Origin: Bacteroidota bacterium | GTDB lineage: Bacteria; Bacteroidota; Ignavibacteria; Ignavibacteriales; Ignavibacteriaceae | DNA length: 47,845 nucleotides | Reading direction: 5' to 3' | Assembly: GCA_021831685.1 (NCBI GenBank) | Contig: JAKBMG010000096.1 | Location: 17,332-65,176 of the forward strand | Shown: piece after piece, positions 21,284 to 47,039 of the stretch | Position numbering within the stretch: the stretch's first letter is position 1 | How the letters are laid out: each line of letters begins with the position of its first letter | Position numbers and translations under genes: made by a program | Notes under the pieces: generated by a model | Told to the model about the DNA's origin: nothing | The model's input: the letters and a program-made list of their open reading frames with translations, nothing else | The model's database searches: none

Positions 21284-21772
21284 TTGGCAGATAGTCTACT
21301 CGTCAATAAAAATTTATCAACGGAAGAAAGATATATTCTTTTGTTGGATCAGCTAAAAAGTTTATTGCACAAGGATGAAAATTTAATTTCAAACCTTGCA
21401 AATGCTTCAGCAGCAATAAAGCAGACATTTGAAAAAGTAAGCTGGGTTGGATTTTATCTTTTTGACGGTATAAAGTTATATCTTGGACCTTTCCAGGGAA
21501 AAGTAGCATGTACAACAATTGCAACCGGCAAAGGAGTTTGCGGCTCTGCCGCAAAAGAGAAAAGGACTTTTATTGTTCCCGATGTAAATAAATTTCCAGG
21601 GCATATATTTTGCGATGCCGATTCAAAATCAGAAGTTGTCGTCCCAATTATAAAAGGACAAAAACTAATGGGAGTACTTGATCTTGACAGTGCATCTTTT
21701 AATTCCTTTGACGAAACGGATAAAAAATACTTGGAAAAATTTTGTAATTTCCTTTCGTCCGAAATATTTTAG
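21284..21772 (+). CDS. msrC: GAF-type free methionine-(R)-sulfoxide reductase
   Basis: This enzyme reduces free L-methionine-(R)-sulfoxide, repairing oxidative damage with thioredoxin. It is a single GAF domain of 162 residues with WVGFYLFDG, GPFQGKVACT, GVCGSAA, FPGHIFCDADSKSEVVVP and GVLDLDS. The three cysteines fall at 76, 86 and 110, the same spacing (10 and 24) as Cys84, Cys94 and Cys118 of the E. coli enzyme. I place the start at TTG 21284, one base after the lon stop, which implies coupled translation; a longer in-frame start inside lon (21188) adds residues with no GAF similarity. Linkage to lon suggests a shared stress response. Confidence 0.9.
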   Translation: MADSLLVNKNLSTEERYILLLDQLKSLLHKDENLISNLANASAAIKQTFEKVSWVGFYLFDGIKLYLGPFQGKVACTTIATGKGVCGSAAKEKRTFIVPDVNKFPGHIFCDADSKSEVVVPIIKGQKLMGVLDLDSASFNSFDETDKKYLEKFCNFLSSEIF

Positions 21773-21797
21773 TCAAACTTGAAATTATAGGTTATTA

Positions 21798-23483
21798 ATG
21801 GCATACATCGTTACAGCAAGGAAATGGCGACCTCAGAGATTCAGCGATGTGGTTGGTCAAGAGCATATAACAACGACATTGAAAAATGCAATTAAGAACA
21901 ATCGTATCGCACATGCATACATATTTACAGGTCCACGCGGAGTTGGGAAAACGACAACTGCACGTATCCTTGCTAAATCATTAAACTGTCTTAATCCAAT
22001 TGACAATGAACCATGCAATGAATGTGATATGTGCAAATCAATTCAGACAAATCAATCATTGGATATAATTGAAATTGACGGGGCATCAAACAGAGGTATT
22101 GATGAAATCCGCACACTTCGTGATTCTGTGAAATATGCGCCGACAAATGGGAAATATAAGGTTTATATTATTGACGAAGTTCACATGCTTACAAGAGAGT
22201 CTTTCAATGCATTTCTTAAAACCCTGGAAGAACCGCCGTCTTATATAATATTTATTTTTGCAACAACCGATATTCACAAAGTTCCTCTTACTATAATTTC
22301 AAGATGCCAGCGTTTTGATTTTAGAAGAATTCAACTTGATACGATTAAAGATCAACTTAAAAAAATTGCCGATACCGACAAGATAAAAATAGACGACAAA
22401 ACTTTAACAATAATTGCAAAGAAATCTGACGGTGCTTTGCGAGATGCTGAAAGTTTTTTTGATCAGGTTGTTTCGTTTTGCGGTAATAGCGTTGACTCCG
22501 AAACTGTTTCTAAAATGTTAAATCTTGTAGATGATGAAGTTTATTTTATTCTTTCAGATGCCGTATTGCAAAAAAACTTCAAAGCTGTTTTTGAGGTAAC
22601 CAACATTATTTATGAGCATGGTTGGAACTTCATTGATTTTATGGAAGGGTTGATGGAGCATTTTAGAAATATTATGACGATAATATTAAGCAATAGCACC
22701 GACCTTGTAGAGACTGCAGATTTATATAAGTCAAGATATTTAGAATACCGGAATAAATTTTCGGAAGGCGATATTCTTCGCCTACTAAATTTTTTAAATA
22801 AAATGCAGCAAGAATTGCGCTACACCCAAAATCAAAAATTAAAAATTGAAATTTCTTTGAGTCAATTAATCGGACTTGAGAAATCATCAACCATTACAGA
22901 ATTGATTTCATTGGTAGATGATATAAAAAAAAACTCTAATTTGAATTTTGAAACTGATCAACCTGAAAAAACTGGAATCTTTTCTACCAAAGAAACTTTT
23001 AAATCCACAAATTCTACTCTTCAAAATAAACCGGAAGTTATTTTACAAGAACCAACTATCATTTCATTAAAAGATATAACACTTCAAGAAAACAAGTCTG
23101 AGAAAGGTTTTAACTTTACTTCCATAATTGAGGGATGGAGCGATTTTGTCGCTTCAGTTAGTTCTGAAAAGGGATTGATATTCGGACCGTTCATTCAAGA
23201 TATAAAGTTGCTTAGTTTGGAAGGAAACCGGTTATTCATTTTCAGCGACAATCCGGACGGGGACAAAATTTTATCTAACCATGAAGAATACTTCCAAAAG
23301 AAGACAAATGAATTCTTCGGAAAAAAATTGAAACTTGAGCTTAAGAAAAACGACAATTCCGCATTCGGAGCTGCAAATTCGATTGCAAAAAGAAAGAATA
23401 ATGAAAAAAAATCCATTAATCCGGCAAATGATCCAATAATAGATTCCATAGTAAATATTCTTGGCGGAGAAGAGATTCAATAA
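21798..23483 (+). CDS. dnaX: DNA polymerase III subunits gamma/tau
   Basis: DnaX forms the ATPase core of the clamp loader and, as tau, links it to the polymerase. The 561-residue protein has the AAA+ start YIVTARKWRPQRFSDVVGQEH, Walker A GPRGVGKTTTARILA and a zinc site CLNPIDNEPCNECDMC. It also has DEVHMLTRESFNAFLKTLEEPP and the sensor SRCQRFDFRR. Domain III ends near residue 365; the rest is the variable tau tail. An A9 run (22925-22933) falls at codons 375-378, just after domain III, and both other frames stop within a few codons. A shorter gamma-like form could therefore arise by slippage. The gene follows msrC by 25 bases. Confidence 0.96.
   Translation: MAYIVTARKWRPQRFSDVVGQEHITTTLKNAIKNNRIAHAYIFTGPRGVGKTTTARILAKSLNCLNPIDNEPCNECDMCKSIQTNQSLDIIEIDGASNRGIDEIRTLRDSVKYAPTNGKYKVYIIDEVHMLTRESFNAFLKTLEEPPSYIIFIFATTDIHKVPLTIISRCQRFDFRRIQLDTIKDQLKKIADTDKIKIDDKTLTIIAKKSDGALRDAESFFDQVVSFCGNSVDSETVSKMLNLVDDEVYFILSDAVLQKNFKAVFEVTNIIYEHGWNFIDFMEGLMEHFRNIMTIILSNSTDLVETADLYKSRYLEYRNKFSEGDILRLLNFLNKMQQELRYTQNQKLKIEISLSQLIGLEKSSTITELISLVDDIKKNSNLNFETDQPEKTGIFSTKETFKSTNSTLQNKPEVILQEPTIISLKDITLQENKSEKGFNFTSIIEGWSDFVASVSSEKGLIFGPFIQDIKLLSLEGNRLFIFSDNPDGDKILSNHEEYFQKKTNEFFGKKLKLELKKNDNSAFGAANSIAKRKNNEKKSINPANDPIIDSIVNILGGEEIQ
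22925..22933 (+). other. candidate slippage site (A9) inside dnaX
   Basis: Nine consecutive As span the end of an ATA codon and the next AAA AAA AA. Gain of one A or a -1 ribosomal shift would read AAA CTC TAA, giving 380 residues. Loss of one A would read ACT CTA ATT TGA, giving 381 residues. Thermus dnaX makes gamma by transcriptional slippage on an A9 run; use of this site here is inference. No upstream Shine-Dalgarno-like stimulator was seen. Confidence 0.45.
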
Positions 23484-23672
23484 ACAAGCCGATTCATAAA
23501 TAAAATTAATAAGTCCGCTCTAATATGGTTATTCCGATGGAAGTGGGAAATCATAAATCTTTGAATATTGAATATATTCGCACTTTCAGAGTATTTCGGT
23601 TTTTTAAACTAAACTCATTAATTTGATATGAAATTTTGAAACTTTGAGGTTAATTCATTATTTTTGTTCCTT

Positions 23673-24362
23673 ATGACCAAAAGTTTTATCATCGCAATTG
23701 ATGGCCCTGCCAGCTCCGGGAAAAGTACGTCTGCAATGCTCGTAGCGCAAAAGCTTGGATATTTGTACATTGACACAGGCGCAATGTACCGGGCAATAAC
23801 ACTTTTGGCAATTGAAAACAAAGTTCTTAATAATTCTGATGAAGTAATTGCTTTAGCAAATGCGTCCAAAATTGATCTAGTTTATACTGCGGGGACAACA
23901 AAAGTATTTCTTAACGAAAGAGATGTTACCGAAGATATTCGATCAAAGGAAGTAAATAAATTCGTTAGCCCTATCAGTAAAATTAGCGGGGTGAGAGAAG
24001 CACTGGTAAAAAAGCAAAGGATACTTGCCCAAAACAACAGCGGTATTGTAATGGAAGGAAGAGATATCGGAAGTGTGGTTTTCCCTGATGCAGATGTAAA
24101 AATATTTTTAACCGCCTCAATTGAACAGAGAACCGTACGAAGAGTAAAAGAATACGATTCAAAAGGAATTAAAGTTTCAATAGAAGAAATAAAATCAAAC
24201 CTTGAAAGCAGAGACAAGATTGATTCTTCGCGAGAAAATAGCCCGTTGATTAAAGCGCCGGATGCGTTCGAAGTTGATACTTCTAAAGTCACAATAGAAC
24301 AACAAGTTGAAATAATTTTAGAAAAAGTCCGACAAACAGCCGGGAAAAAGAATAATGTTTAA
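23673..24362 (+). CDS. cmk: cytidylate kinase
   Basis: Cmk phosphorylates CMP and dCMP with ATP in pyrimidine nucleotide salvage. The 229-residue protein begins FIIAIDGPASSGKSTSAM (P-loop). It continues with the CMP-binding YIDTGAMYRAITLLAI, then VMEGRDIGSVVFPDADVKIFL and the arginine-rich lid region RRVKEYDSKG...ESRDKIDSSRENSPL. I use ATG 23673; an in-frame TTG at 23664 would add three residues. A TATTTTTG at 23659-23666, resembling the Bacteroidetes -7 box TAnnTTTG, sits just upstream but is weak evidence. cmk followed by rpsA is a conserved order in many bacteria. Confidence 0.96.
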   Translation: MTKSFIIAIDGPASSGKSTSAMLVAQKLGYLYIDTGAMYRAITLLAIENKVLNNSDEVIALANASKIDLVYTAGTTKVFLNERDVTEDIRSKEVNKFVSPISKISGVREALVKKQRILAQNNSGIVMEGRDIGSVVFPDADVKIFLTASIEQRTVRRVKEYDSKGIKVSIEEIKSNLESRDKIDSSRENSPLIKAPDAFEVDTSKVTIEQQVEIILEKVRQTAGKKNNV

Positions 24363-24474
24363 GAGTTAATATTATAGATTTTTTAGCCATCGTAATTAAA
24401 ATATGTTAAATTAATTTTCTGTTAAATTGTTTTCAAGATGGCGAAAGCAAAATTAACAGATGTAATTTCCGTTT

Positions 24475-24480
24475 AGGAGG
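24475..24480 (+). promoter_or_regulatory. full-consensus ribosome binding site of rpsA
   Basis: AGGAGG ends four bases before the ATG at 24485. It is the strongest Shine-Dalgarno site noticed in the window, fitting a highly expressed ribosomal protein. S1 genes in E. coli have a weak site and a structured leader, so this gene is probably translated differently. Confidence 0.85.
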
Positions 24481-31089: not shown

Positions 31090-33645
31090 TTACTTTCCGT
31101 TATAAAATTGATCTCTCTTTGTAAGTTTCAAATCTTGAAGCTGGGGAGCTTTGACTCTAATTTCAAAATAATAACCTGAATAAATTCCAATTGGATTCCA
31201 AGTAAAATTCATTTCCCAACAATGCAGATCTCTTGAAATTTTGATTTGAGGTGCAGCAAATTGATGAGCTTCAAAGTCGTAACTTCCGGCGAAAGAAAGC
31301 TTCCAATTCGGAGTCAGATTGAAATCAAGACTTGCACTCATGTTAGAAATTTTTGTGGGGTTATATGGATCAACCTTTGAGTAAGTGAAGTTATAACTTA
31401 TATATAAATTCCACGGGATGGTGAAATCAGCTTTCTTTTCAGAGTAAATTCCCTGGTAAACAGTTTTATCCGATTGTTCTAAAGTATAAGCACTTTCGGC
31501 GGAACTATTTTTTTCTTTAGAAGAAGCCGATTTAAATTTTTCTCCGGAGAGACTAGTCGATACAGAAAAATTAAAACTTGTTAGTCTTAATAAACCTTTC
31601 CCTTCATCAACCAAAAATTTATTTATTCTGCTAATACCGGGCGCATAGTCATACATAGAGAAATTTGATGACCCTGAAAAATTAAGATAATCTCCGACTT
31701 GAGTTCTATAGCTTAAACTTAAGTCTGAAAATTTTAAGCTATCTGCTGCAAAGTTGTAACTCATGTTAGCTGAAAGATTGAGAAGTTGAATCTTATTTTC
31801 CTTTGAAGTCGTGTCCGTTGGGTCTGCTTTAGTTTTCATTTCAAAAATATTTCCTACAGAAAAGGAAATATTTTGCTGCTCGCCGGAAGGCGGACCACCG
31901 TAAATTTCTCTTTGAAATTTATCGTATGAAATTATCTGCCCATTTGCATTTTTATAAGTGCCGTAATAATTCCACATCGGTTTAGAATAATCAGGCTGAA
32001 AGTTATAAGAAATAGACGGGATTACGGTTTGCCTAATAGCGCTAATTCCGAGCATATCCGGTTGAAAAATACCATAAAACCTTGTTGAGGCAGAAAGCCC
32101 CAGGTTAAAGGTTCTTACAAAATTAATTTGCTTAACATCGTTTGTAATAATAGAATCACCTCCTGTAGAAGCAACGCCGGCATAATTTTCTTGAATACGT
32201 TTATTGTACCAATCTTCCTGATAATTTATGTTGGGGGTCAAGCTAATATAGCCAATCTTTGGTGAAGCGCTAATACTTAAGTTATGCTGGATACCTCCTC
32301 TACTACTCAAATCGCCGTTCACTTTATTTCTATCGTTTTGAAATTGTCCGCTGTAATTAAAGCCGATTAGCTCGTACCAATTTTGGTCAATATGAAACCC
32401 GTTTCGTTTGAAAGGATAAATTTGAGGAACTGTAAATCTAATACTTGGTAAAATTTCGTTAATATTTCCTGTCTGCAAATCCTGAACACGGTTATAATTG
32501 AGGTATAGGCTATTGCCTGATTCATCCCACGTTTTTGATAAAGTTACATTAGAAACAATTTGGTTCTGTAATTGTTGATTTAAATCTCCAACATTTGTTT
32601 TCAGATAATTATTCGAAGTAAACTGAAGATTTGCAACAAGTCTAAGCGTAGGAGTAAAAGTCTGGTTATGATTCCATGCAATATTCCAATCAATTTCCTT
32701 ATTATTTCCAGGATCAGTTGACTCACCCGATTTAAGAAATGAATATCCTCCGGAAAGACTTCCGCTGTATTCATAGCGTTTTGCATATCTAAAACGGCTA
32801 TCGAACTTGTAACTTCCTCTCGTATAATAATCGCCGGATAAATTAAGGTCGGCATAATCATTTATAGCCCAAAAATATCCGAAGCGTGAGAAATAATACC
32901 CGTAAGTTTGGCTACTACCAAAAGCAGGTACAATAATTCCGGAGCGTCTTCCGGATTCAATCGGGAAAACCGCAAACGGGACCGGTAATGGGAATGGGAC
33001 GCCGCCAAAAAAAAGCCAAATCCATTTGGCAACAATTTCTTTTTTCTGTATAACTTTCATCTCCGAAGAGTAGAAATAGTAATCGGGCGGATTAGCATCA
33101 CAAGTTGTATAAATACCATCTTTAATAAAATAAGTGTTCTTGTCTACTTTATTAATTTTTTCACCGGTATAAAATGAGTTTTCCATCTTTGTAGAAGCAC
33201 TCGAAATAAAGCCTCGTGCTGTTTTGAAATTATACCTCATACTTTCGCCATTATAGACCTCGCCGGACTGCGAGAGAATGGGAGTATCTCTAAGCTTGTT
33301 GGGAAGAGAATCACTTGGAATGCCGTAAGCGTCTACATTGCTAGTAACGAAGTTGACAAATATTTTTGCGCTTTTCAAATCCGTATCTTTATACTTCAAG
33401 TTACCGTTACCGTATAAATCCATTTTTTTTTGATTAACGAAAAAGAAAAGAGAATCAGAAGCGCTGGAATAAATTACAGAATCTACATCGAAACCTTTTT
33501 TCTTCAACGTATCTTTTGCGGCAAGCGAGTCTTTAACAGAAGTAGTTACTGAATCTTTATAGAAAACAATTACAGAATTACCGGCAAAGGAAAAACCTCC
33601 CCAATAAAAGAATAGATATAAAATGATTATGAAGGAAAATTTCAT
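31090..33645 (-). CDS. lptD: LptD/OstA-like outer-membrane lipopolysaccharide assembly protein
   Basis: LptD inserts LPS into the outer leaflet of the outer membrane. The 851-residue protein has a signal peptide (ending ...GFSFAG). An OstA/LptA-like beta-jellyroll follows (about 70-190). It includes the family landmark YTTCDANPPDYYFYSSEMKV, and then PLPVPFAVFPIESGRRSGIIVPAFG. The rest is a large beta-barrel with alternating aromatic strands, ending in YYFEIRVKAPQLQDLKL. The disulphide cysteines of E. coli LptD are not evident, as in many Bacteroidetes relatives. No lptE is adjacent. The ROK kinase gene is 39 bases upstream. Confidence 0.8.
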   Translation of the reverse strand: MKFSFIIILYLFFYWGGFSFAGNSVIVFYKDSVTTSVKDSLAAKDTLKKKGFDVDSVIYSSASDSLFFFVNQKKMDLYGNGNLKYKDTDLKSAKIFVNFVTSNVDAYGIPSDSLPNKLRDTPILSQSGEVYNGESMRYNFKTARGFISSASTKMENSFYTGEKINKVDKNTYFIKDGIYTTCDANPPDYYFYSSEMKVIQKKEIVAKWIWLFFGGVPFPLPVPFAVFPIESGRRSGIIVPAFGSSQTYGYYFSRFGYFWAINDYADLNLSGDYYTRGSYKFDSRFRYAKRYEYSGSLSGGYSFLKSGESTDPGNNKEIDWNIAWNHNQTFTPTLRLVANLQFTSNNYLKTNVGDLNQQLQNQIVSNVTLSKTWDESGNSLYLNYNRVQDLQTGNINEILPSIRFTVPQIYPFKRNGFHIDQNWYELIGFNYSGQFQNDRNKVNGDLSSRGGIQHNLSISASPKIGYISLTPNINYQEDWYNKRIQENYAGVASTGGDSIITNDVKQINFVRTFNLGLSASTRFYGIFQPDMLGISAIRQTVIPSISYNFQPDYSKPMWNYYGTYKNANGQIISYDKFQREIYGGPPSGEQQNISFSVGNIFEMKTKADPTDTTSKENKIQLLNLSANMSYNFAADSLKFSDLSLSYRTQVGDYLNFSGSSNFSMYDYAPGISRINKFLVDEGKGLLRLTSFNFSVSTSLSGEKFKSASSKEKNSSAESAYTLEQSDKTVYQGIYSEKKADFTIPWNLYISYNFTYSKVDPYNPTKISNMSASLDFNLTPNWKLSFAGSYDFEAHQFAAPQIKISRDLHCWEMNFTWNPIGIYSGYYFEIRVKAPQLQDLKLTKRDQFYNGK

Positions 33646-43574: not shown

Positions 43575-46500
43575 TTAAAAATATGCTCTTACTTCCGCCC
43601 TTGCAGTGTGAACTATTTTTTCATTGCCTAAAGCTCTGCCGTCATAGCTGATTGTAGATTGAAGATTAGCCGCAAGACGGTAATCAAAGTTAAACTGCCA
43701 ATAATAATTTTTTCCTATTACATTTCCCGATGTTAATTCAAAGGGAATAAAATTAGTGGTGATATTTGCTCGAAGTTCATCACGTTTAAATTCAATTCTC
43801 AATCTACCGGTATTTGCAAAGGACAAATTAAGCCGCAAAGTTTGAGAATTTAAATTAATAATAGTCGGTGTAGAAGGAAAATTATCCTGACTTCTACCAA
43901 CTTTAATAACAAAACCTACTTCCACATTTCTTTCGGGTCGATATGAGAAATCCGAAGTAATATTATTTCCCGAGATTTGTTGTTGAAGATTTGAGATTAC
44001 GGGAGCGCCGACGTTATTAGTTTGATTTATAATATCCGTTTGATTGCTAATTTCTTTTACCATTTTGAAATTTATTCTTAAACTTTGTTCTCTGGTATAA
44101 ACCCGTTCGGAGCCGCCACTATATTGGTTTAAACTCTTTGTCTGCGCATATCTTAGTCTGAATGATAAATCCCTGTCGTTCTCAAAAATAAATAAATCCT
44201 GTTGAATGAAATTCGAACCTTGAATAGTTGTAGCTTCTTGTTGGAAGTCCGAAAAGTGAAGCAAATATATTTTCTTATAATCGGGTTCAGTGCTGTTTTC
44301 TTCAACACGCCATGATGTTTCGGATGAGAAAGGTTTTAGTATTTCTTCAAGCAATGAGCCTTTGTCAAAAATATCACCATAGACAACCTTCCAACGCGAG
44401 CTTGTTTTAAGATCGATAACCGGATAAAGCTGAGTTGTAGGTACTGTTATAAGGACATAGTTAGCGTTATATAACGACGGTTGAAATTCATTTTCATCTG
44501 CTATACCGTTATGGTTCAAGTCGCCAAGATAAATATAATTTCCGGTGCCGATAGGAACCTGAACAAAGACCTTTTGAAGCTTTGCCGATTTTTGAGTAGA
44601 GACTTCATAATAAAAATCTCCCGACAAAGGGTTCCAGAAATTGAATTTAGATTGGGAGCGAACTAAAATAGTCTGGCTATTCAAGTATCCGATTTTCTTA
44701 AATGCATCCGAATAAGTTTTATTGTTAATTGTAAAATTTAATGTTGAACTAAACTTTCTGCTTCCGTTATAATTTAATTCAACGGATTGTGCCGATGAAG
44801 TTGCCATGTTGGTCATTATACCGGATAAAGGAGAATAATCGTCTCTTAACGAATATTTAGCAGTCAAGTGAAGTCCGTAAAAATCTACCAATTCAAGAAA
44901 GGGATCTATTTCATAATATTTTAGACTTGTTGAAAGTAATGAATCAGCGCCGCCTTGTTTATCATTTTTATTCTCAGATAGAAATCCGATTCCCGGTTTA
45001 AGTTTCCATATATTATAGAACGCCTCCCCTTGCTGTCTAAACCAATAGCTTTTGAAACTTAAATTTTCCGAAGAAACATAATCTAAGTTATAATTAAAAC
45101 CGAAATTCTTGTTGTCGCTAAATTTAATTGTGTTGTTATAGCGGGTCGACTTAAAGTCGCTGCCTTGTGTAAGCAATCCGTATGATGAGTTTATACTCAA
45201 CTCGGTGATTGGCTTCAAGGTTAAATTTAACTCGCGAAGCTGCTGGTTTTGTGGTATCGTTGTTGAATCTATATTATAGTCACGGTTAAATTCAACCGGA
45301 TTTATTCTGTCGGGTGAGGTATATTTATCCTGGATAAATCTGTCGTGATATGAAATCCCTATTTCGCCTAAAGAAACTTTTCCGATTTCAACCTTTTGCG
45401 GGTCAACAGTAAAGAGAATATTTGTAGCATAGCCAAAGTTGCTATTATCTGCCGACGAAAATCTATTTCGATTATAAAGACTGCCCGCATATTCAACGTT
45501 AAGATTTACACCTTTTGACGGTTGATAATCAAAAGCCAAATTAGCGTTCTGTTTTAATTCCGGCAAAGGAAGAAATATTACAGGAGCATAATTCCCCTGG
45601 TGTATTCCGGCAAATTTATAATCTCCAATACTTATATTAACATAATCTCCTCGCTGTTCTCCGACGTAGCTAAAAACAACATTGTAAACCGCATATACCC
45701 CGCCGGGGTTGTAAACATAATATGAATAGGCAGCTCCGTTGATAAGAGTATCAACACGTGAATAGGTTCCGTGAAGATTTCCAAGTGAATCCGGCACCGC
45801 TAATGAGATACCTGTTTTAGTTGCCTTTGAGGGATCATTCCCGGCAGCGGCAATTAGCGCTTTATCCGAATCTGATAATACAATATCTACCGGGGCATCC
45901 TGATTATCACCTTCACGAATGTATTGAAATTTAATTCCGAGCTTATCATTAAGTAATTTTGATTCAACACCGGCTCCGAAGAAGGTACGCTGATACTTTT
46001 GATCGGAATACTCAAAATCAATTGAAATTCTGCTTGCAGAAGTAATTAGCCTATTTGGGGTAAATGTTATTTGGGCGTTTGCATAATCAATTATGTAATC
46101 GTTCCTTTCGCCCCTTTTCATTTCTATTCCGTCGATATATACTTTTTCAGAGCCTGCAATAATAATTATGTTCCTTTCGTTATTTTCTCCGGTTAAAATG
46201 TATGGACCTTGAACTCCGTCAGCACCATTAAAGCTATTAGTGGTATATTTTCCTTTGGCGCTGGCAATTGCAATGTAAACTTTTTGCTCTCCATAATTAA
46301 ATTCGCCGAGTAATCCTTGCAGTTTTCTATCGATAGGACCGAACACGCCAATTTTTTTTTGAAGAGTATAATCTCCGAAAGTAGCCGTGGCGTTTGGATG
46401 TTTAATCTGGATAAAAACATTATCAAGCTGGTCGAGAGTAGCCGTATTGCCTTCCGGTTGAATAGGAGTATTTTGATCAGTAAGTGCAGCGACAATTTCA

Positions 46501-47039
46501 ATCTCTTTAGAGAGTCTTCCGGATAATTGAAGGCGCAATCCGCTATTGAGCGATAAATCCTGATTCGTACCAACCGTAAAGCCTCTCACAATTGTTCCGC
46601 TTTTTTGAATACCGCTGCCAAATATAGTCTCGGCATTCAATGGAGTGCTTTCATTATTTGATACTCCGACTGTGTCCCCCAGTTTTTCATCAAACTTATA
46701 TGCCAAAATTCTATTCTTATATTCTTTTTGAAGTGCGAGATTTACAGTTTCATAAGTCACTATTAAAGTGTCAAACGCAGAATATGGAAGACTATCTGAG
46801 AGCACAAAGGAAGATGTTGAGTAAGAGAAGCTGTAATCTTTAGAAGGTAATACCTTTCCCTTTAATTTTATTATCTCAGAAAAAGGGACAATTACAGGTT
46901 GGGAAAGATGATATTCATTGCCAAAATTGATCCGGATTGAATCAGTGACGATTGAATTGTAAAATTTTTGCTGAGCAACTAATAATTGCGCGGCATTTAG
47001 GCTAAAGATTGCGAGAATAAATAATAAGTTAAATTTCAA
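43575..47039 (-). CDS. large exported outer-membrane beta-barrel-like protein
   Basis: The 1154-residue protein starts at TTG 47039 and has a signal peptide (FNLLFILAIFSLNAAQLLVAQ). The N-terminal 350 residues hold two beta domains with repeated phrases: VRGFTVGTNQDLSLNSGL, LSGRLSKEIEIVAALTDQN and IDGIEMKRGERNDYIIDY. These echo pieces of SprA-like gliding/secretion proteins, though this is much shorter. The rest is alternating polar/aromatic strands typical of a large barrel. It includes an EF-hand-like loop DLNHNGIADENEF (about 845-857) and ends with ARAEVRAYF. No precise family is recognised. It is co-oriented with the NUDIX gene, 20 bases away. Confidence 0.7.
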   Translation of the reverse strand: MKFNLLFILAIFSLNAAQLLVAQQKFYNSIVTDSIRINFGNEYHLSQPVIVPFSEIIKLKGKVLPSKDYSFSYSTSSFVLSDSLPYSAFDTLIVTYETVNLALQKEYKNRILAYKFDEKLGDTVGVSNNESTPLNAETIFGSGIQKSGTIVRGFTVGTNQDLSLNSGLRLQLSGRLSKEIEIVAALTDQNTPIQPEGNTATLDQLDNVFIQIKHPNATATFGDYTLQKKIGVFGPIDRKLQGLLGEFNYGEQKVYIAIASAKGKYTTNSFNGADGVQGPYILTGENNERNIIIIAGSEKVYIDGIEMKRGERNDYIIDYANAQITFTPNRLITSASRISIDFEYSDQKYQRTFFGAGVESKLLNDKLGIKFQYIREGDNQDAPVDIVLSDSDKALIAAAGNDPSKATKTGISLAVPDSLGNLHGTYSRVDTLINGAAYSYYVYNPGGVYAVYNVVFSYVGEQRGDYVNISIGDYKFAGIHQGNYAPVIFLPLPELKQNANLAFDYQPSKGVNLNVEYAGSLYNRNRFSSADNSNFGYATNILFTVDPQKVEIGKVSLGEIGISYHDRFIQDKYTSPDRINPVEFNRDYNIDSTTIPQNQQLRELNLTLKPITELSINSSYGLLTQGSDFKSTRYNNTIKFSDNKNFGFNYNLDYVSSENLSFKSYWFRQQGEAFYNIWKLKPGIGFLSENKNDKQGGADSLLSTSLKYYEIDPFLELVDFYGLHLTAKYSLRDDYSPLSGIMTNMATSSAQSVELNYNGSRKFSSTLNFTINNKTYSDAFKKIGYLNSQTILVRSQSKFNFWNPLSGDFYYEVSTQKSAKLQKVFVQVPIGTGNYIYLGDLNHNGIADENEFQPSLYNANYVLITVPTTQLYPVIDLKTSSRWKVVYGDIFDKGSLLEEILKPFSSETSWRVEENSTEPDYKKIYLLHFSDFQQEATTIQGSNFIQQDLFIFENDRDLSFRLRYAQTKSLNQYSGGSERVYTREQSLRINFKMVKEISNQTDIINQTNNVGAPVISNLQQQISGNNITSDFSYRPERNVEVGFVIKVGRSQDNFPSTPTIINLNSQTLRLNLSFANTGRLRIEFKRDELRANITTNFIPFELTSGNVIGKNYYWQFNFDYRLAANLQSTISYDGRALGNEKIVHTARAEVRAYF

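Follow-up and report, generated by a model that had tools for sequence, protein, structure and literature searches.

How a single, uninterrupted dnaX gene might yield both the tau and the gamma subunit of DNA polymerase III is the question raised by a run of nine adenines (A9) in a Bacteroidota bacterium of the family Ignavibacteriaceae, order Ignavibacteriales, class Ignavibacteria. The stretch analysed here, hereafter the window, is 47,845 nucleotides long (assembly GCA_021831685.1, contig JAKBMG010000096.1, positions 17,332 to 65,176). Comparison of its dnaX sequence with those of relatives suggests that the A9 run is probably a programmed transcriptional slip site giving gamma beside tau. 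An earlier note on the sequence had proposed transcriptional slippage as in Thermus; the relatives mostly support that proposal, while the transcriptional step is one that we infer.

The A9 run and its predicted products

The gene occupies positions 21798–23483 of the + strand, on which all dnaX features described here lie, and its zero frame opens with ATG and encodes tau. Its translation matches two profiles above their cut-offs, TIGR02397 (dnaX_nterm) at E 7.2e-141 and PRK05563 at E 2.3e-157. Pfam matches place an AAA+ domain (PF13177) at residues 20–178 (21855–22331) and domain III (PF12169) at residues 232–363 (22491–22886), and the alignment with Escherichia coli DnaX (gamma/tau) spans residues 1–358. 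The run, the proposed RNA polymerase slip site, consists of exactly nine As at 22925–22933 and starts 13 residues past the end of domain III, just beyond the conserved core as the earlier note had it. It extends from the third base of codon 376 to the second base of codon 379 (ATA AAA AAA AAC), one codon further on than the 375–378 first given.

Both shifted frames close shortly behind the run. After gain of one A the frame ends at a TAA (22937–22939), for a product of 380 amino acids and 43.7 kDa that finishes in IKKKL; after loss of one A it ends at a TGA (22942–22944), for a product of 381 amino acids and 43.8 kDa that finishes in IKKTLI. These are the lengths that had been predicted for a gamma-like protein in either direction. 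Unslipped tau is the product of a single open reading frame (ORF) of 561 amino acids (64.0 kDa), and its C-terminal part with the stop codon (22934–23483) would be read only with the frame kept. Since the E. coli gamma chain in the crystal structure 1jr3 comprises 373 residues, the slipped product would reach about as far as that minimal clamp-loader subunit. A run of eight As at 23404–23411 (codon 536, near the end of tau), matched in several relatives by seven or eight As at comparable codons, lies outside the linker behind domain III and was excluded from the linker counts below.

In the mechanism that we favour, RNA polymerase would realign the nascent RNA on the A9 run, so that some mRNAs gain one or more As and fewer lose them. 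Those with 9 or 9+3n As would encode full-length tau, 561 amino acids give or take a lysine, and the others would meet a stop few codons past the run and encode a gamma-like subunit of about 380 amino acids, which would keep the ATPase domains and domain III and lose the C-terminal part. Slippage itself, the polymerase rather than the ribosome as the slipping machine, its rate, and the making of gamma and its use in the clamp loader are all presumed steps of this scheme.

The window by itself does not settle whether such a run is functional. The earlier note had remarked that an AT-rich genome makes such runs common, but the counts here give this no support: the window avoids A9, its two strands together holding 4 copies where dinucleotide shuffles predict 20.3, and the sense strands of its 38 ORFs (42.8 kb) hold 3 runs of at least nine As against 6.8 expected from synonymous shuffles. 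Two of these three lie in minus-strand ORFs, at 33423–33431 (ORF 31093–33645, codon 72) and 46352–46360 (ORF 43578–47039, codon 227). With an A gained or lost, the first meets stops 5 and 8 codons away and the second 8 and 52 codons away, and both proteins begin, as judged by eye, with a signal-peptide-like N-terminal stretch. With two further sense-strand copies in the window, the A9 in dnaX is uncommon there without being the sole example, and one such run proves no function by itself; it is the relatives that carry the case.

Recurrence of the run among relatives

In the order, a linker run of at least nine As (A9–A11) was found in 90/144 dnaX genes, spread over 44 of 64 genera. By family, carriers numbered 52/75 in that of the window (f1) and 36/64 and 2/5 in two others (f2 and f3), against 23.4, 22.0 and 0.9 expected from synonymous shuffles that preserve the protein. 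Elsewhere in the same ORFs such runs occurred 2, 1 and 0 times, against 9.6, 9.4 and 0 expected. Such runs are thus commoner than expected in the linker, and outside it the genes of f1 and f2 have fewer than expected. The comparison with relatives that the earlier note had asked for mostly favours its proposal, with carriers among 8 of the 11 genes read in the genus (13 genomes) as well as in the family and order; under the note's own condition for refutation the outcome is mixed, four of the eight genus carriers having it at codon 410 or 412 and not 376, and three of the eleven genes lacking it.

These counts rest on the following samples. In f1 a dnaX match was found in 78/80 genomes (G026 and G072 had none; those of G016 and G020 were weak or fragmentary), and 75 genes were read from the 80 genomes, some of them cut by contig ends, with the 203-residue piece of G077 left out. 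At a stricter threshold, 138/147 genomes of the order had a match; all 69 genomes of f2 and f3 with a match were read, while six others gave no match at this stringency. We removed L001 (a copy of L002), L078 (from G016, where no dnaX was found), the copies L159–L187 and L257–L270, and L077, the first half of the G013 gene, whose second half (L060) was used. Outside the order, 73 of 139 matching genomes were read (53 plus 20 further), chosen to spread over families, and in the family f18 we read 25 of 33 listed genes, chosen to cover both gene architectures described below. A further set, 80 named loci from many phyla, consists of the best matches listed and is not a random sample. Counts of length and phase were made on 277 genes in total.

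Guanine-cytosine (GC) content was considered as the sole cause of absence within f1 and dropped, carriers making up 28/38 at loci below 35% GC, 23/35 at 35–45% and 1/2 above. All nine genes read from genus g37 of f2 (L194, L196, L197, L205, L206, L212, L216, L233 and L234) lack the run at loci of only 33–39% GC, and form a natural set in which to ask whether gamma is dispensable.

What is conserved is length. The longest linker run in the 277 genes was A7 in 21, A8 in 8, A9 in 61, A10 in 93 and A11 in 5, with twelve or more in none and fewer than seven in 89. Within the order, A8, A9, A10 and A11 numbered 5, 38, 49 and 3 against 19.6, 20.7, 17.1 and 6.7 expected from shuffles, so that A9 and A10 together made up 87 cases against 37.8, and runs beyond A11 were absent against 2.5 expected. 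Run length is therefore confined to a narrow band of 9–10 As. These lengths occur in every codon phase: A9 and A10 were counted 15 and 13 times in phase 0, 21 and 55 times in phase 1, and 25 times each in phase 2.

The place of the run is less constant. In the window's genus it lies at codon 376 in four genes, 410 in three and 412 in one, and in genus g10 at codon 380 in three and 405 in two, the sixth gene having A8. Where genus runs share a place, the As are kept while the amino acids vary, with ATA, TTA or GTA before the run and AAC or AAG after it, a pattern as from selection on nucleotides and not on protein. On a quick LG+G4 tree of the dnaX core (142 of the 144 order genes, two short ones omitted), on which change counts are rough, 86 of 88 carriers had one run and two had two runs. 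At least 23 changes of phase and 33 of position (in 5-codon bins) were required among the carriers, and 21 of presence over the 142 rows; 60 label shuffles gave minima of 29, 51 and 38. As the shuffles never came down to the observed counts, close relatives tend to share both place and presence. In genus g39 of f2, L225 is a single-ORF gene with two A10 runs in one linker, and L193 has A9 in the two-ORF form discussed below.

The nearby stops recur with the run. Both shifted frames closed within 6 codons in 39/50 carriers of f1, 28/34 of f2, 10/13 of other families of the phylum and, among the matches listed, 24/30 of the named loci, against 11.7, 7.7, 1.8 and 4.6 at random linker positions; in none of these four sets did any of 500 controls reach the observed count. 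Omitted from this test were two carriers of f1 and one of f2 (with contig ends or an open frame) and all two-ORF genes. The frame opened by a gained A closes fastest (f1 mean 2.8 codons, f2 mean 2.2).

Beyond the order, linkers with A9–A11 were found in 7/17 genes of the rest of the class and 24/36 of other families of the phylum (31/53 together), against shuffle expectations of 2.2 and 8.1. Among the matches listed, 38 of the 80 named loci carried at least nine As, against 13.9 expected; these were 34/43 of the Bacteroidota, 2/3 of the Ignavibacteriota, 1/1 of the Chlorobiota and 1/3 of the Verrucomicrobiota, and the run was seen in 0/30 from the remaining phyla, 14 of them Bacillota. The one verrucomicrobial carrier, L142, has A9 in the linker at about codon 427 in a locus of 60% GC; all other carriers among those matches belong to the Bacteroidota, Ignavibacteriota or Chlorobiota. 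The nearest of the named loci to the window gene, L079, comes from a metagenome-assembled genome of the Ignavibacteria, which places the window in that class or near it. Elsewhere in the ORFs of the class, phylum and named sets (the last again among the matches listed) such runs numbered 0, 0 and 0, against 0.5, 0.9 and 2.0 expected. The run is rare above 55% GC (1/9 in the class, 3/10 in the phylum); Hymenobacter dnaX genes carry A10 in loci of 61–62% GC, where an AT-rich genome cannot explain it.

In some genes the zero frame itself stops just behind the run, leaving two ORFs. We found 21 such genes plus 13 further ones, 34 in all, and in every one (21/21 and 13/13) the long frame is the one opened by gain of an A. 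This form was seen in 0/52 f1 carriers; L193 shows that it occurs in the window's order. In f18, where 9 genes have one ORF and 16 have two, the run is A10 in 24/25 and A9 in one, so that the A count is preserved even though the frame encoded by the template varies. A change in run length was considered as the source of these flips in architecture and rejected for most of f18, where the length stays at 10; an exception is the pair of L299 (two ORFs, A9) and L300 (one ORF, A10).

Polymerase, ribosome or chance

A run of this kind could also act on the ribosome, by itself or alongside polymerase slippage, making gamma by –1 frameshifting, or sliding on A-rich codons, as in E. coli. We regard this as unlikely for the window gene, although several observations suit it: any A9, whatever its phase, holds an in-frame A_AAA_AAA, the TAA that closes the frame after a gained A would also terminate a ribosomal gamma, and each of the 34 two-ORF genes has its long frame in –1. 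The gain of an A being equivalent to a –1 shift, the direction seen in those genes fits polymerase and ribosome alike. The accessory signals of the E. coli site do not accompany the window run. The heptamer A_AAA_AAG is missing there, with A_AAA_AAA present in frame, positions 21674–24475 of the window's + strand contain no RGGRG motif, and downstream of the run there is no hairpin (–2.7 kcal/mol, z +1.17). Across f1, Shine-Dalgarno-like (SD-like) motifs of the GGAG/GAGG kind lie upstream in 1/52 carriers (control 2.7%), as they do in 3/36 of f2 (control 4.6%), and downstream folds have a mean z of –0.08 against mononucleotide shuffles, with z below –2 in 4/52. The genome has lysine tRNAs of two kinds, UUU at two loci and CUU at one (30 of the 46 tRNA matches were scanned).

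Two further features bear on the mechanism. The prevalence of 9–10 As in all phases argues against a phase-bound ribosomal site, for which seven As in phase 2 suffice, and stops close by in the +1 frame are to be expected where the polymerase slips, whereas a ribosome shifting by –1 has no need of them. That the run has relocated within the genus with its length and close stops kept argues for slippage.

We consider it very improbable that the run arose by chance in the lysine-rich linker of an AT-rich genome and serves no function in this species. Chance would accommodate the two other sense-strand A9 runs in the window, the relatives that lack the run, and the yield of synonymous shuffles, which give at least nine As in about 31% of f1 linkers. 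It accords poorly with the avoidance of A9 in the window (4 against 20.3) and elsewhere in dnaX, with a run at the identical codon in four genomes of the genus, and with the recurrence of run and stops together across the phylum, loci of 61–62% GC included. Scarcely credible is a contingency tract altered by DNA slippage (phase variation), which would fit the relatives that differ in length and architecture, such as L299 and L300, but not a run that stays at 9–11 As in carriers, reaches twelve in 0/277 genes and is kept as A10 in f18 whichever frame is zero; nor would one expect a gene of replication to be switched on and off.

Several observations weigh against transcriptional slippage at a selected site. 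At least nine As are missing from 54/144 genes of the order and from 3/11 of the genus, and the dnaX core tree requires no fewer than 21 gains or losses of the run. The shuffle null for f1 already reaches 23/75 (about 31%), the linkers being lysine-rich, so that the excess is about twofold. No common substitute heptamer is evident in the 54 run-less order genes: 26 have an X_XXY_YYZ heptamer whose –1 frame closes in at most 15 codons, a raw count without chance control, 16 of these being A_AAA_AAN (for example L215, L216, L249, L250 and L253), and 28 have none. Nor do the run-less genes avoid shorter A-runs, with 21 genes at A7 or longer against 18.5 expected, 5 at A8 or longer against 7.0, and 0 at A9 or longer against 1.4. 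In the class set the stops lie within 6 codons in 2/6 carriers, a figure reached by 71/500 controls, and the controls of the stop test are random linker positions and not positions behind a shorter A-run. SD-like motifs exceed their controls in 7/24 of the phylum set (12%) and, among the matches listed, in 9/38 of the named set (6%), an excess that favours the ribosome, and by the rule given in Antonov 2013 (PMC3711429) a single direction of shift would point the same way. Finally, many of the assemblies are drafts of many contigs in which single-base homopolymer errors are possible; the same run lengths nevertheless recur across independent genomes.

With these points weighed, we still hold transcriptional slippage to be the probable use of the run in the window gene. 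For the phylum as a whole we lean, with less assurance, towards a broader statement: that the run may be the usual route to both DnaX subunits in the Bacteroidota broadly defined (Ignavibacteria and Chlorobi included), via transcriptional slippage, and that selection would hold 9–10 As and nearby stops, and not a codon, a phase or a zero-frame product, at a site repeatedly lost, regained and moved.

Relation to known dnaX systems

The proposed site is of a known kind. In Thermus thermophilus, gamma is made from dnaX by transcriptional slippage on A9 (Larsen 2000, as cited in PMC1088944 and PMC5009743). The window gene shares with that system, as these sources present it, a sense-strand A9, tau in the zero frame, near stops in both other frames and lysine tRNAs of two kinds (for Thermus, PMC5009743). 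It differs in the place of the run, at codon 376 of 561, two-thirds of the way along and behind domain III as in E. coli, and in that slippage was measured in Thermus and is here proposed from the sequence. With E. coli dnaX the window gene has in common this relative place and the kind of product predicted; unlike it, the window has neither A_AAA_AAG nor an SD motif nor a hairpin, and the genome has two kinds of lysine tRNA where the E. coli type of site goes with a single one that reads both AAA and AAG.

Antonov 2013 (PMC3711429) describes two-ORF dnaX in 12 genera (17 genes, nine of them with A10) and names Chloroherpeton (A9) and two Chlorobium; its main text does not contain the string 'Ignavibact'. 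The A-run at the parting of gamma and tau is common to those genes and the window gene, and 34 genes of our set have the two-ORF form itself. The window gene, unlike these, is a single ORF whose zero frame is open to 561 amino acids, and slippage would yield gamma and not tau. We found no description of the single-ORF form across the Bacteroidota in the literature covered (titles and the starts of abstracts, in part of the best-ranked entries only, with most subscription journals outside its scope), and neither the breadth of the phenomenon nor a site that wanders with its length locked was found in print.

If this reading is true, polymerase stuttering is no oddity of Thermus but a common source of gamma and tau in a large phylum, of which many cultured members offer direct testing. 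Sister species with and without the run, and those with single-ORF and two-ORF genes, would then be natural replicates for studying the purpose of gamma, and a two-ORF dnaX should not be mistaken for a broken gene.
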